This document shows, piece by piece, positions 41,708-47,440 of a stretch of 64,000 bases of DNA. Every line of letters starts with the position of its first letter. The stretch's first letter is position 1. The DNA comes from Chloroflexi bacterium HGW-Chloroflexi-2 (lineage in GTDB: Bacteria > Chloroflexota > Anaerolineae > Anaerolineales > Anaerolineaceae), in assembly GCA_002840735.1 (NCBI GenBank), contig PHBY01000002.1:186001-250000 (forward strand), read 5' to 3'. Position numbers and translations under genes: made by a program. A model generated the notes under the pieces. That model saw nothing but the letters and a program-made list of their open reading frames with translations. It had not been told where the DNA came from and did no database searches.

Positions 41708-42835
41708 ATGAAGAAATTTAAATACATTGTTTTTGTGTTAGTTCTTTCAATGGCATTGGTTTTGAGTGCCTGTCAACCGACAGCTACGCCAGAACCTGCA
41801 CCTGTTGAAGAACCTGCCGAACCGGTTGTTGAACCGACCAAAACACCTGAGCCAACTGCTGTGCCACCAACACCGGAACCTGAACCGATGGTAACAATTG
41901 GTACAGCTGAAAACCCAATCAAAGTTTTGTTTGTTCCTTCGGTTGATGCGAATGTAATCGTATCTGGTGGTGAAATGATGGCAGAAGCGCTAAAAGCTGC
42001 TACAGGATTAGAATTTGAAGTCGTTGTTCCGACATCTTATGCTGCCACAGTAGAAGAAATGTGCGCATCCCCTGACAATACTATGGGTTTCATCCCCGCA
42101 ACTCCATATGTAATTGCCAATGAACTTTGTGGAGTGGATGTGGCATTCAAAGCTATTCGAAGAGGATATAGTGTTTATTGGGCTCAAATTCTTGTTGCGC
42201 GTGACAGTGGTATTGAGAGTTTAGAGGACTTAAATGGGAAATCCTGGGGTTTCCCTGATGGTGCGTCAACATCAGGTTTTCAAGTTCCTAGCGCATGGTT
42301 TGGAGAACTAGGTATAGTACCTGGAGAACGGGTTGAAACTGGAGGTCACAACCAATCTGTCGCTGCTGTCTATAATGGTGACGTTGATTTTTCAACATCA
42401 TTCTATTCACCTCCTGCGAAACCTGAAGGTGAAACACCTTGGAATGTTGGAGATCCTGCCGATATTCCTGAAGATTTAATTGATGAGTGTGTTGTTGATG
42501 ACAGTGGTCTAGTTTGCGGTGGATGGACAGTATTAGACGCACGTGCAAATATTCGAACTGAGGCTCCAGATGTAGTTGAAAAAGTTAAGATATTAACATT
42601 GACCCCAGAAATTCCGAATGACACGCTATCATTTAGTCCAGAATTCCCAGCTGATTTACGGGCATTAATTGAAGCCGCGCTAATCGAATTTGCTAAAACC
42701 GATGCATGGAAAGCTTCAATTGGTAGTGTCGATTTCTACAACTGGACTGGTTTAGATGTTGCAGTAGATGCGGATTATGATGTAATCCGATTGGTTGCAA
42801 ATGCCAACGGTACGACATTAGATAATTTCAGATAA
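41708..42835 (+). CDS. phnD: phosphonate/phosphite-type ABC binding lipoprotein
   Basis: A 375-residue lipoprotein: signal peptide with lipobox LSAC (Cys22), then a Pro/Thr/Glu-rich linker to about residue 65, then a PhnD-like periplasmic-binding fold (KVLFVPSVDANVIVSGGEMM, MGFIPATPYVIANE, SWGFPDGASTSGFQVPSAWF, GHNQSVAAVYNGDVDFSTSF). Relatives bind phosphonates, phosphite or phosphate; the ligand is not fixed by sequence. An AGGAGG site gives strong initiation. First gene of the transporter operon. Confidence 0.9.
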   Translation: MKKFKYIVFVLVLSMALVLSACQPTATPEPAPVEEPAEPVVEPTKTPEPTAVPPTPEPEPMVTIGTAENPIKVLFVPSVDANVIVSGGEMMAEALKAATGLEFEVVVPTSYAATVEEMCASPDNTMGFIPATPYVIANELCGVDVAFKAIRRGYSVYWAQILVARDSGIESLEDLNGKSWGFPDGASTSGFQVPSAWFGELGIVPGERVETGGHNQSVAAVYNGDVDFSTSFYSPPAKPEGETPWNVGDPADIPEDLIDECVVDDSGLVCGGWTVLDARANIRTEAPDVVEKVKILTLTPEIPNDTLSFSPEFPADLRALIEAALIEFAKTDAWKASIGSVDFYNWTGLDVAVDADYDVIRLVANANGTTLDNFR

Positions 42836-42902: not shown

Positions 42903-43655
42903 ATGCTTGAAATTAAAGACCTGGTGAAGATTTATGACGGTAATGTTCAGGCCCTAAAAGGTGTTAGTTTTTCTGTGCCAAAAGGACAATTTCTGGCTGT
43001 TATTGGATTAAGTGGTTCCGGAAAATCAACCTTGTTGAGATGTATCAATCGATTAATTGAACCAACATCCGGAAAGATTATCTGGCATGGAGAAGATATA
43101 ACAGCAGCCTCAGACGATGAATTAAGAACTATTCGAAGAAGAATTGGGATGGTATTTCAACATTTCAATCTGGTATTAAGATCAAATGTAATCACGAATG
43201 TTTTAAGTGGTCGTCTGGGTTATGTAAATCCACTAATGAGTCTAATTAATCGATTTCCTAAGAAAGACATTGAAGATGCCCTAATCAGATTAGATCGGGT
43301 TGGAATCAAAGACAAAGCTTATCATAGAGCCGACGAGCTAAGTGGTGGTCAGCAACAGCGAGTTGGTATTGCTCGTGCAATGATACAAGACCCAGAAATG
43401 ATTCTGGCGGATGAGCCAGTTGCTAGTTTGGATCCGGTTTTGGCGCATAGTATTATGCAGTACCTGGAAAAATTAAATAAAGAAGAAGGCGTAACCGTTT
43501 TATGTAGTTTACATTTTTTGGATATTGTTCATCGTTATGCTGATCGGGTAATCGCCTTAAATGATGGTATCGTTGTATTTGATGGTTTACCAACTGAGAT
43601 TGATGATACAAAATTTAAAGAAATTTATGGAAAAGAAGCCGAACGAGTCGGCTGA
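42903..43655 (+). CDS. phnC: phosphonate-type ABC transporter ATPase
   Basis: A 250-residue ABC ATPase of the PhnC type. Walker A GLSGSGKSTLLRC, Q-loop MVFQHFNLV, signature ELSGGQQQRVGIARAM, Walker B MILADEPVASLDP and the switch His in CSLHFLD. It energises the permease encoded 11 bases downstream. Confidence 0.93.
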   Translation: MLEIKDLVKIYDGNVQALKGVSFSVPKGQFLAVIGLSGSGKSTLLRCINRLIEPTSGKIIWHGEDITAASDDELRTIRRRIGMVFQHFNLVLRSNVITNVLSGRLGYVNPLMSLINRFPKKDIEDALIRLDRVGIKDKAYHRADELSGGQQQRVGIARAMIQDPEMILADEPVASLDPVLAHSIMQYLEKLNKEEGVTVLCSLHFLDIVHRYADRVIALNDGIVVFDGLPTEIDDTKFKEIYGKEAERVG

Positions 43656-43666
43656 GGAAGGGAAAT

Positions 43667-45481
43667 GTGAAGAACTCAAAATCAGCACTTCGCTCGATCG
43701 GTTTAGGTTTGGCTATTTTATTTGCGTTGGTAACTTATGCATATGGATTTAAAGTAACAAAAGTAAATTTGGAAGAGACGAAATCAGAGCGAAGACAAAC
43801 GCAGTTAATTAGAATATTGCGTGCCTTGGCAAAACCTGATATTGTTGAATTTGATAAAGAACAAGTGAAATTAGAAATTCCTTTTTATGTTCCTTGTCCA
43901 GAGGGCGGATTTGAACCAGAAGTTGTAGACAAAACAATAGCTCATTTCGAGCCGGAAGCCTATTGCGCTGATCCGGGTACAAAAATGATATTCCGTGGTT
44001 CTAACTTTGAACCGAATGTAAAAGGACCAATAAATTTCCTTCCACCAAGTGGTGTAACTCTGGGAATGGGAATATTCGAAACCGATGAAAATGGTAATTT
44101 TGAAATCACAGTTACGATTCCTCGACGTCCTGAAACAGAGATTCAATACATTGAAACAGTGACAAGCAAAAATGTTGGAGAACCTCGGTTCACACGAACT
44201 GCTATCGAAACATGGGACAAAATTATTGAAACAGTTTTCTTAGCATTATTAGCAACTACATTAGGAACGTTACTTGCTGTTCCATTAAGCTTTTTCGCAG
44301 CAAGAAATCTGATGAAAGACGTTACGAGTCCTATTATTGTGGTCTCTTTAAACCTGATCGCTATTCCTATTGGTATAGTATTAGGAGGTAGTGGTGCTAC
44401 TTGGATGAGGGATTTAAGTAATTTGATCGCCGTTAATGGTTGGGTCATACTCCTCTCAATTATTGTAGGATCAGTAGTCGCATATGGTTTATTTAAATGG
44501 GCTGTTCCTCCGGAAGAATTAGAACCAGCAAGTGGCAAAATCAGATTTGTGCGGTCGTTAACTTTGGTATTGATCACATTAATCAGTGTTTTTGTATTAT
44601 TTATGGTTAGTAAATTAATGATCATAATTGGAACCACCGCAAGCGGGAAACTTGGAGGTTTTGGATTTTTAGGATCATTTTTTGCTGATATTGGCGATAT
44701 TTTGGGTATGATTATGGTACTTGTGACAGCGCTATTGGGTGCTGGTGTACTTTCTGGTATAGGCGGCAAAACTGGAAATTTATTATTAAAAAAATTTACT
44801 CCACAGATACATAGATTGCTTGGAATAATTTTCGGTGGAATTGCTGGAGTTGTATGGTTTTTGATCATCATGGGTGGTATAAATTGGGTTTATCAAATAA
44901 ACCAGCCTTTAATTGTCAGAACAATTCCCGCTATATTAGGAGCTATTACCGGAATAATTCTGGGCACTATATATAAACCCAAAGCCCCAGTTCCAATCGG
45001 TATGGCTGTGTATTTAATTTCAAGAACCATTTTCAATGTTTTACGATCGATTGAGGCATTGGTAATGGCAATTGTATTTGTTGTTTGGGTAGGAATTGGT
45101 CCATTTGCCGGTTCTCTGGCACTCGCATTACATACCATAGCTGCATTGGCAAAATTATATTCTGAACAGGTAGAATCAATTATGACTGGTCCAATCGAAG
45201 CGGTATCTGCCACTGGTGCGAACCGGTTACAAACTATTGTGTATGCGGTTATCCCCCAAATTATTCCACCTTATATCTCCTTCACCATGTATCGATGGGA
45301 TATTAATGTGAGGATGTCCACAATCATTGGATTTGCTGGTGGTGGTGGTATTGGTTTTCTATTACAACAAAATATTAATCTTCTAAACTACCGTGCGGCA
45401 TCTGTGCAAATGCTTGCAATTGCAGTTGTTGTTGCCTCAATGGATTACATCAGTTCGAAGATAAGAGAACGTATAGTTTAG
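43667..45481 (+). CDS. phnE: PhnE-type permease with extra external domain
   Basis: A 604-residue permease, over twice the usual PhnE length of about 270. Residues 1-30 are helix 1; about 60-180 are an external domain with two Cys and an immunoglobulin/IPT-like stretch (GTKMIFRGSNFEPN); transport helices begin near 185 (ETVFLALLATTLGTLLAVPL); about 240-440 carry added helices; the C-terminal third has the typical EAA region (IEAVSATGANRLQTIVYAVI) and RMSTIIGFAGGGGIGFLL. GTG start after AGGAAGGG. A terminator at 45508 ends the operon. Confidence 0.87.
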   Translation: MKNSKSALRSIGLGLAILFALVTYAYGFKVTKVNLEETKSERRQTQLIRILRALAKPDIVEFDKEQVKLEIPFYVPCPEGGFEPEVVDKTIAHFEPEAYCADPGTKMIFRGSNFEPNVKGPINFLPPSGVTLGMGIFETDENGNFEITVTIPRRPETEIQYIETVTSKNVGEPRFTRTAIETWDKIIETVFLALLATTLGTLLAVPLSFFAARNLMKDVTSPIIVVSLNLIAIPIGIVLGGSGATWMRDLSNLIAVNGWVILLSIIVGSVVAYGLFKWAVPPEELEPASGKIRFVRSLTLVLITLISVFVLFMVSKLMIIIGTTASGKLGGFGFLGSFFADIGDILGMIMVLVTALLGAGVLSGIGGKTGNLLLKKFTPQIHRLLGIIFGGIAGVVWFLIIMGGINWVYQINQPLIVRTIPAILGAITGIILGTIYKPKAPVPIGMAVYLISRTIFNVLRSIEALVMAIVFVVWVGIGPFAGSLALALHTIAALAKLYSEQVESIMTGPIEAVSATGANRLQTIVYAVIPQIIPPYISFTMYRWDINVRMSTIIGFAGGGGIGFLLQQNINLLNYRAASVQMLAIAVVVASMDYISSKIRERIV

Positions 45482-45597: not shown

Positions 45598-46800
45598 ATG
45601 ACATCTAACAAAATCATCAATCAGGAATTTAAATTGAAGGGGAGTGCAGATCTGGCATTTGCAGTGGTTGTATTAGCTTCATATTTCGCAATGTTTAGTT
45701 CGCTGAGAGAGACAAATTTTGTCAAACTCCTGATTATGGTTATTTTAGGAATAGCTTATATAGCGATTGGTATCTATGGATATAATTTTATTTCCAAACA
45801 AAGTTCGTTTTTTTGGATTTTGATTTATTTTCTAATACAAATCCCAATTGGTTCGATCATAGTTTTTCTAGGTAATGGATCTGGATTTTCTGCAATACTA
45901 TTACTGCCTTTAGCGGGGCATGCAGTCGTTTTAGCACCTGGGTATTGGTTATATTTGATAAATTTACTTATCGTATCAGGATATGTCTGGGCTGTTCGGC
46001 AATATACCGGGAACTTAAGTGAGGTTTGGTCTTCACTCCCAACAATACTTGCTGGGTTAATTTATATTATGGTTTTTACTCAAATGGCTATTGACGAAGA
46101 AAGATCAAAGAGAGAAGTAGAAAGATTGGTATTAGAACTTGAAGATGTGAATGAAAAACTCAGATCTTACGCAAATGAAGTTGAACAATTAACCGTGATA
46201 AAAGAACGCAACCGTATTGCCAGAGAAATTCACGATGGTTTAGGCCACTATTTAACAACGATTCACATGCAATTGCAGGTTGCGCAGGCTGTTATAGATG
46301 AGAATCCAGACAAAGCCAAAGACTCAATTGAAAAAGCAAGATCACAATCGCAAATTGCATTAATTGATGTGCGTCGTTCAGTATCAACATTACGTTATGA
46401 TCAAACCGAAAAAGAATCAATTAAAGACGCACTTGATCGTGCCATGAGACCATGTGATTGGATTGGAATTCGGTCGCATTTGGAAATAATTGGGGATGAG
46501 AAGGGTTTGGATGAGACGGTGCGATCAACAATTTATAGAATCGTTCAGGAAACAGTCAATAATACATGTAAATACTCTAAAGCTGACAATTATTATTGCC
46601 AAATAAATTATTCAGACAGTGAAAATTTATCCTTAATTATTTATGATGATGGTATTGGAATGAGTGAATTTCGTTCCGGTTACGGGTTACAAGGACTTAG
46701 AGAAAGAATTGAGCTCCTTGATGGTACTTTGAATTTTCAAACTTTCCCCCAAAAAGGCTTTAGAATAGAAATAGAGTTGCCCTATGATCAAAAAAATTAA
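45598..46800 (+). CDS. membrane sensor histidine kinase (HisKA_3)
   Basis: A 400-residue kinase with about five or six helices (residues 15-165), a coiled linker, and the dimerisation/phosphoacceptor segment IKERNRIAREIHDGLGHYLT with His212. The ATPase part has VNNTCKYSKA and DDGIGMSEF, GYGLQGLRERI. The membrane part has almost no external loops, suggesting an intramembrane sensor. It overlaps its response regulator by 17 bases. Confidence 0.93.
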   Translation: MTSNKIINQEFKLKGSADLAFAVVVLASYFAMFSSLRETNFVKLLIMVILGIAYIAIGIYGYNFISKQSSFFWILIYFLIQIPIGSIIVFLGNGSGFSAILLLPLAGHAVVLAPGYWLYLINLLIVSGYVWAVRQYTGNLSEVWSSLPTILAGLIYIMVFTQMAIDEERSKREVERLVLELEDVNEKLRSYANEVEQLTVIKERNRIAREIHDGLGHYLTTIHMQLQVAQAVIDENPDKAKDSIEKARSQSQIALIDVRRSVSTLRYDQTEKESIKDALDRAMRPCDWIGIRSHLEIIGDEKGLDETVRSTIYRIVQETVNNTCKYSKADNYYCQINYSDSENLSLIIYDDGIGMSEFRSGYGLQGLRERIELLDGTLNFQTFPQKGFRIEIELPYDQKN

Positions 46801-47440
46801 ATTATTAATAGTTGATGACCAGGAATTATTCCGTGAAGGATTAATGACATTATTATCTATTAAAAATGATTTCGAAGTGGTGAGTCAATCAAGTTCTGGT
46901 GAAGAAGCAATATTAGCTGCAACGAAGTTCTTACCTGAAGTCATTTTAATGGATTTGCGCATGCCAGGCATTGGTGGTGTTGAAGCGACAAAACGAATTC
47001 TACAACAGCATCCTGGTATTAAAATAATCGTCCTCACAACTTTTGATGAAGATGATCTTGTTTTTAATGCTTTACATGCTGGAGCGGTTGGCTACTTATT
47101 AAAAGATGTCTCGCCTGAAAAATTATTTGAAGCAATCCGAACTGCAAATAAAGGAGAATATTACTTACTACCTTCGATTACCGCAAAAGTGATGGCGGAA
47201 TTCACCAGACTACCAAGAACCCCTAAAATTGAACCTGGTAGTCAATATGAGAATTTATCCAGACGAGAATTGGAGATTTTGAAAATGGTTGCTACTGGAA
47301 TGAGTAATAAAGAAATCGCAATGTCTTTAGTTATTGCTGAAGGTACCGTAAAAAATCACCTGACAAGTATATTTAATAAATTGGATGCTCGGGACAGAAT
47401 GCATGCAGTTCTCATCGCAAAAGAGAGTGGCATAATTTAA
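46784..47440 (+). CDS. NarL/LuxR-family response regulator
   Basis: A 218-residue regulator: receiver with VDDQ and phosphoacceptor Asp57 (LMDLRMPGIGG), Lys in YLLKDVSPEKL, and a C-terminal LuxR helix-turn-helix (LSRRELEILKMVATGMSNKE, then TVKNHLTSIFNKL). Partner of the kinase at 45598. It may control the transporter upstream or the membrane gene downstream; neither is shown. Confidence 0.95.
   Translation: MIKKIKLLIVDDQELFREGLMTLLSIKNDFEVVSQSSSGEEAILAATKFLPEVILMDLRMPGIGGVEATKRILQQHPGIKIIVLTTFDEDDLVFNALHAGAVGYLLKDVSPEKLFEAIRTANKGEYYLLPSITAKVMAEFTRLPRTPKIEPGSQYENLSRRELEILKMVATGMSNKEIAMSLVIAEGTVKNHLTSIFNKLDARDRMHAVLIAKESGII

Follow-up and report, generated by a model that had tools for sequence, protein, structure and literature searches.

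Results

The phn operon and its enlarged permease

The window, by which we mean the whole stretch of 64,000 nucleotides that was analyzed, carries phnD, phnC and phnE on the same strand with short gaps between them, and these genes form an operon. The genes and the features of their products are the following:

41708..42835, + strand: phnD, binding lipoprotein of 375 aa; Pro/Thr-rich tether, then the Phosphonate-bd domain
42401..42535, + strand: extra two-Cys segment of PhnD (about residues 232-276), seen by length comparison with other PhnDs
42903..43655, + strand: phnC, ATPase of 250 aa; TIGR02315 at 335.2 bits (cut-off 266.1)
43667..45481, + strand: phnE, oversized permease of 604 aa with a GTG start
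43685..43759, + strand: TM1 of PhnE (residues 7-31); a helix at 7-31 in the model, hydropathy peak at 14-24
43769..43837, + strand: interfacial helix and Pro (residues 35-57); invariant Arg43, Arg49, Arg52 and Pro57
43895..43966, + strand: Cys77 to Cys100, both invariant in 77/77 aligned relatives
43937..44170, + strand: Ig-like beta-sandwich (residues 91-168) of the predicted structure, neocarzinostatin-like fold
44216..44317, + strand: core TM2 (residues 184-217), aligned in other PhnE forms; mean major-residue frequency 0.85
44318..44992, + strand: six-helix membrane insert (residues 218-442), from predicted structure, length conservation and topology
44993..45478, + strand: remaining permease core with the EAA coupling motif (residues 443-604); PF00528, type I TMD matches

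PhnD matched the Pfam family PF12974 (2.1e-38) and exceeded the cut-off of the broad phosphate/phosphite/phosphonate-binding family TIGR01098 (135.5 vs 112.05 bits), and it fell below that of the PhnD equivalog TIGR03431 (87.6 vs 261.1 bits). PhnE, scored as a whole protein over two stretches, exceeded the NCBIfam cut-off of TIGR01097 (234.5 vs 216.7 bits); in a six-frame search, which scores one stretch, it reached 209.6 bits, under the same cut-off. PF00528 was also matched (47.1 bits vs a cut-off of 26.4; 2.9e-12 at residues 429-592). The sequence-only reading had given the coordinates, strand and length of this permease correctly and had set its 604 residues against about 270 for the family, in agreement with the 252 positions of the TIGR01097 model and with conventional PhnEs of 262-319 aa (n = 12, chosen for their short frames; one more has 361 aa). 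Alignment with other PhnEs indicated that the usual core comprises only about residues 184-217 and 443-604, and in the window PhnE this core is not continuous but split by an insert of 225 residues. Directly 3′ of phnE lie a histidine kinase and a LuxR-type response regulator (45598-47440), and genes of the same clusters stand close behind phnE in few relatives, for example L047, L086 and L089.

A scan of species genomes, with a query that included the insert, found 488 relatives, the best 80 of which were kept. Each of these 80 has one long frame of the insert kind (three are cut by contig ends); most are labelled Anaerolineales, Anaerolineae or Chloroflexi, and records not labelled MAG are among them, namely Levilinea saccharolytica, Longilinea arvoryzae and Leptolinea sp. 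PhnC lies directly 5′ of PhnE in 74 of the 80 named loci (68 by strict gap; in the other six it overlaps an over-long PhnE frame), and PhnD was detected in 72. It is hardly credible that the long open reading frame is an annotation or assembly artefact such as a gene fusion or a read-through: we found no point in support of this, and the single open frame recurs throughout the best 80 of the 488 relatives, records not labelled MAG included.

An external domain behind the first helix

The external domain with two cysteines, which had been described behind helix 1, was recovered with Cys77 and Cys100 present in 77/77 aligned relatives, and the two residues probably form a disulphide. The AlphaFold2 model (77 sequences) has a beta-sandwich at residues 64-169, and its helical insert spans about 220-440. 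Superposition of residues ~90-168 on neocarzinostatin (2cbm) gave a VIA Z of 7.8 and an rmsd of 2.0 over 79 residues, a value of Z below 8 that may reflect merely a common arrangement; neocarzinostatin-type Ig-like sandwiches were the best fold matches of residues 91-168, and MalF-P2 was not among the matches listed. Pfam assigned no family to the external domain of the window copy and three weak families among 19 members, and the profile of the domain gave two chance-level matches to solved chains. A phmmer search of the window PhnE against solved structures, in which the same domains might have been found in a characterized PhnE, returned no PhnE hit. The interfacial stretch at residues 32-60, which is placed outside, is rich in Lys and Arg (5.86 per sequence), contrary to the simple charge rule.

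The PhnE core superimposed on MetI, OppB and OpuA chains with VIA Z values of 10.6-11.7, as for a type I importer TMD. Since the core was modelled at low confidence (pLDDT blocks of 44-59 at TM2 and of 52-78 C-terminal to the insert), no reading is drawn from its details.

A six-helix membrane insert in the permease core

The additional helices that had been noticed within the transport core correspond to residues 218-442, which lie between core helices 2 and 3 in the cytoplasmic TM2-TM3 loop. Predicted alone, the insert folds into six helices (mean pLDDT 92.3, pTM 0.80) with short strand-like residues at either end, fitting a plug-in domain, and its length varies only from 222 to 227 residues in 77/77 aligned sequences. 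The numbers of Lys and Arg per loop alternate along the insert (2.32 in, 0.26 out, 3.10 in, 0.58 out, 1.68 in, 0.30 out, 1.83 in), and this positive-inside pattern over 77 sequences predicts that both of its ends are cytoplasmic. Its mean major-residue frequency is 0.50, compared to 0.86 for the core. Conservation reaches 90% at 16 positions of the insert, which hold Gly, Pro, Ala or aromatic residues; several of these positions (322-343, 407, 409) lie at the outer side, and because none of the 16 is charged, a structural rather than a catalytic role fits.

We considered two origins for the insert. A degenerate second PhnE core was unsupported by hhalign of the insert profile against the core profile (probability 0.3%), and the hits to known Pfam families were scattered and weak, the commonest occurring in 6/77 members with a best E of 0.00034. 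The insert profile gave one chance-level match to solved chains (E 1.9), Foldseek with the insert alone gave a best E of 1.3 and none at 0.001, and VIA gave a best Z of 7.7 over 85-97 residues, a range common for helical bundles. Absent or weak matches do not prove the fold to be new.

Distribution and history of the added domains

Among 61 genomes, the own genome and its relatives, 21 have long-form PhnE loci (L001-L020 and L036, where L012 is cut and L036 is cut and just 38% identical), and other PhnE forms occur in many more of them. The insert profile A6 matched 43/346 genomes of the class, an occurrence that is beyond chance, and the narrower profile A2 matched 8/301 genomes of the phylum, all of the own order; because A6 found more in the class than A2 did in the whole phylum, both counts are lower bounds. 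In 32 of 35 stretches around the class matches the insert match shared one frame with a PhnE core; L153 and L158 had insert matches of 14-16 bits without a core, and L157 had none at threshold. The insert was not matched in plasmid records, and the PhnD matches there, among the ten listed of 201, were at most 31.3% identical. Three of the 80 kept loci with long-form PhnE (L110, L116, L122) are on Acidimicrobiia-labelled contigs, which may reflect either transfer out of Chloroflexota or misbinned contigs. Alignments A4 and A6 comprise the window sequence and all named loci except L060, L075, L110 and L116 (76 of 80), and A1 and A3 omit L012.

In a tree of the core (122 rows), all insert-bearing rows formed one clade of 65 rows with a support of 100/96. 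It lies within a wider clade of 109 rows (100/99), 90 of which are in frames with the external domain, and the 13 rows outside it belong to conventional PhnEs, namely the 12 of 262-319 aa and the one of 361 aa. This nesting suggests that the external domain was gained first and the insert later, once, in a tree that is midpoint-rooted and has long branches among some conventional rows. It was built from L001, L002, L021-L040, every third locus of L047-L126, and L127-L181; where the core was not nearly whole, the row was lost (L036, L116, L147 and the second subunit of L133), and L153, L157 and L158, having no core, have no row. By hand, L134 (3032) and L156 were labelled as insert-bearing on a partial match, and L030 and L031 as short; L127_1, one of the 65 rows of the insert clade, carries the label insert-free, although the contig start truncates it too early to judge the insert and the residues it begins with resemble the end of the insert.

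Two adjacent PhnE genes were present in seven loci of the insert clade, one of these pairs (L127) being cut. In the six others (L129, L133, L134, L137, L139 and L143) exactly one subunit carries the full external domain. Both subunits match the insert, although in 5/6 the match of the subunit with the external domain is partial. One external domain per importer is thus apparently enough in these pairs, in keeping with a dock for a single binding protein. Among the separate tandem pairs that lack the insert, the external domain was found by profile in both subunits in 7/8, and the eighth, L023, reads alike; by the same profile, neither half of the fused double PhnEs of L025-L028 and L180 contains it.

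Further forms of PhnE, at L021-L028, L029-L035 and L037-L040, have an N-terminal membrane extension, occur as tandem pairs, or consist of two fused cores; the extension showed a weak, sub-threshold likeness to DUF5683/DUF6677 in six proteins scanned. L030 and L031 carry a different and shorter insert where the six-helix one would sit, and they belong to a clade that lacks the latter. These short inserts were rejected as homologues (hhalign 4.8% with a two-sequence profile; other clade) and were treated as a putative separate insertion, and the TM2-TM3 loop of PhnE may be an insertion hot spot.

A PhnD segment that accompanies the insert

The stretch matching residues 230-277 of the window PhnD is 44-63 residues long in 90/90 PhnDs paired with insert-bearing PhnEs and 5 residues long in 17/17 PhnDs paired with PhnEs that lack this insert. 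The 90 comprise 72 from the window and the named loci, that of L036, and 17 from class loci; L062 (cut) was omitted, as were five of the 22 class-locus PhnDs that were too cut (L140, L147, L149, L155 and L160), and the PhnDs of L030 and L031 are counted among the 17. Both cysteines of the segment are present in 76/90. The phmmer alignments of PhnD to PtxB and HtxB stop at the segment, from which it appears that these characterized proteins are without it.

Four further PhnD-like proteins next to a normal PhnD in insert-form loci likewise have a stretch of 5 residues. A second stand-alone PhnD-like protein (~342 aa) lies upstream of the normal PhnD in L055, L069, L079, L098, L107 and L115, that of L107 being an over-long frame.

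A pairing of the PhnD segment with the external domain was discarded, because the segment is missing from systems that have this domain but not the six-helix insert. Across the sequences compared, the segment tracks the six-helix insert and not the external domain, and this co-occurrence is the new element of our findings. Because it is the insert that co-occurs with the change in PhnD, the sequence-only reading, which had stressed the external domain, probably put its emphasis on the less specific addition. The insert and the segment each mark one clade, so that they represent one co-gain and not repeated events; their co-occurrence suggests that they work as a pair.

It is possible, if somewhat less likely than the model set out in the Discussion, that the insert is a mere lateral scaffold or stabilizer of the permease dimer, unrelated to PhnD, and that the segment arose coincidentally in the same lineage. 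The low conservation of the insert relative to the core, its confinement to one clade and the partial match retained by the domain-bearing subunit of 5/6 tandem pairs would all be consistent with this scaffold. It is opposed by the distribution of the PhnD segment, which is present in 90/90 PhnDs with the insert, the early-branching L148, L151 and L152 included, and in 0/17 without it.

Fusions of PhnD to other binding domains

In 14/80 insert-form loci, PhnD is fused behind one or two other binding domains, with a single PhnC and PhnE behind. The fusions are to SBP_bac_8 in L047, L060 and L072, to SBP_bac_3 in L065, L068, L071, L113 and L125, to Bmp in L067 and L080, and to Bmp plus SBP_bac_3 in L105, L117, L121 and L124 (domains assigned by Pfam in L047, L072, L067, L080, L065, L071 and L121, and by phmmer in the others). 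A literature search that covered few subscription journals found no report of unrelated binding domains fused to PhnD. These sugar-, amino-acid- and nucleoside-type domains could mean that the permease is an engine for several receptors and carries other cargo, and the 14 loci with such a domain ahead of PhnD are the evidence for it. We regard this as quite unlikely, because the window PhnD is unfused, fusions also occur in systems without the insert (L025, L026 and L031), and extra permease genes lie upstream in 8/14 fusion loci (Pfam-scanned in L047, L071, L113 and L121, assigned by blast cluster in the other four), so that the added binding domains may serve those permeases.

Substrate and phosphorus metabolism

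Tyr111, Ser187-Thr188-Ser189, His214 and Asp305 of PhnD are conserved, and the matching motif residues bind phosphate in Synechococcus PhnD1, according to the available part of the article (PMC10284923). Thr306 replaces the capping Tyr of PhnD1, which indicates that the ligand may differ. The proposal that the extra domain preselects substrate found no support, the oxyanion-binding residues lying in PhnD as usual.

The set had been described as free of phosphonate-degrading genes, and none lies beside phnDCE in the part of the window that was read. In the own genome, PhnJ of C-P lyase, for which a search had been recommended, gave no matches, with an E. coli control over the cut-off; phosphonatase reached 46.1 bits at best (cut-off 220), PhnW 164.6 bits (cut-off 400.8), and PhnA gave no matches. 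The search set consisted of these four, and a control genome exceeded the cut-off for PhnJ only. Of the 61 genomes, one exceeded the cut-off for PhnJ and six that for phosphonatase; two of these six, G017 and G041, also have a long PhnE, and relatives may thus use phosphonate. The genome with PhnJ is G046, where the enlarged PhnE pair and PhnJ lie on separate contigs; the contig with PhnJ bears a smaller PhnE-like frame of 316 aa.

PstC-family permeases were over the cut-off in 59/61 genomes, and since the own genome also has Pst-type permeases, a role in phosphate uptake would be redundant. E. coli PhnCDE takes up phosphate, according to the available text of the source (PMC6469041). This uptake, the oxyanion residues and the lack of a catabolic gene over the cut-off among the four searched together favour a phosphorus oxyanion as the ligand. 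Annotations as "phosphonate transporter" in these bacteria say little on phosphonate use.

Discussion

A model for the enlarged importer

PhnD, PhnC and PhnE would together form a type I ABC importer, presumably with a PhnE homodimer since there is a single PhnE gene, and its cargo would be a small phosphorus oxyanion: phosphate, phosphite or a simple phosphonate. PhnD would act as a tethered lipoprotein, and the Ig-like domain projecting from the TM1-TM2 loop may keep it near the pore, much as MalF-P2 does with MalE. The insert, a putative self-contained membrane module in the cytoplasmic TM2-TM3 loop, would flank the core without lining the pore, and its extracellular loops may meet the extra PhnD segment, providing a second, lineage-specific dock or a lateral scaffold. 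We consider the chances of this model, with an external domain that grips the lipoprotein in the manner of MalF-P2 and an insert that docks or scaffolds, to be about evenly balanced. The domains, their positions and topology, the conservation, the single clade and the co-occurrence with the PhnD segment come from sequence and prediction and are its basis; the homodimer, the disulphide, the placement of the insert beside the core, the docking and the ligand are what we infer from them.

That the external domain docks the lipoprotein, as had been proposed, is plausible by analogy: its position behind an early helix like that of MalF-P2 and its single copy in 6/6 tandem pairs of the insert clade agree with such a role, whereas its presence in both subunits of most insert-free pairs does not. 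A bolder and rather doubtful version holds that the insert and the PhnD segment match each other and were acquired jointly, as a receptor dock embedded in the membrane that would be new to ABC importers, and that some relatives add chimeric lipoproteins in which two or three unrelated binding domains share one PhnCE engine.

Comparison with known systems

The permeases of type I importers are usually viewed as a small conserved core of helices with optional loops. A six-helix domain within that core, predicted at high confidence, confined to a single clade and passed on along with an altered binding protein, offers a clean case for the study of how receptors are recognized or retained at the permease. 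No report of an enlarged PhnE was found in a literature search that covered few subscription journals.

In the eight-helix type I permease MalF, the P2 domain is an extracytoplasmic domain of ~180 residues between helices 3 and 4 that touches the binding protein, according to the available parts of two articles (PMC2246101, PMC3150292). Both MalF-P2 and the external domain of PhnE are extracytoplasmic and follow an early helix, a parallel drawn from position and not from any match of sequence or of the folds listed; unlike PhnE, MalF is not described as having a six-helix insert in the available text of these sources (PMC2246101, PMC3150292). The MalG1/MalG2 proteins of Thermotogales belong to another family, and no added membrane helices are described for them in the part of the article at hand (PMC2246101).

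The picocyanobacterial PhnD1CE system shares the oxyanion site of STS, His, Asp and Tyr with the window PhnD, and most strains with PhnDCE are without known phosphite or phosphonate catabolism, as stated in the accessible portion of the source (PMC10284923). That portion does not mention an extra segment in PhnD1, whose capping residue is Tyr compared to Thr in the window PhnD (PMC10284923). As in some of the relatives analyzed here, more than one binding domain serves a single importer in GlnPQ; its tandem domains are joined to the permease, according to the bibliographic listing (PMC8025302), whereas in the relatives domains of unrelated families are joined to PhnD.

The closest counterparts are the PhnEs of PhnCDE importers (TIGR01097), with which the window PhnE shares the core helices, the EAA region and the operon partners. 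The 12 conventional PhnEs that we fetched (262-319 aa) differ from it in having neither the external domain nor the insert. The window PhnE is a variant of this known importer type, to which its added parts would contribute in the manner proposed above.
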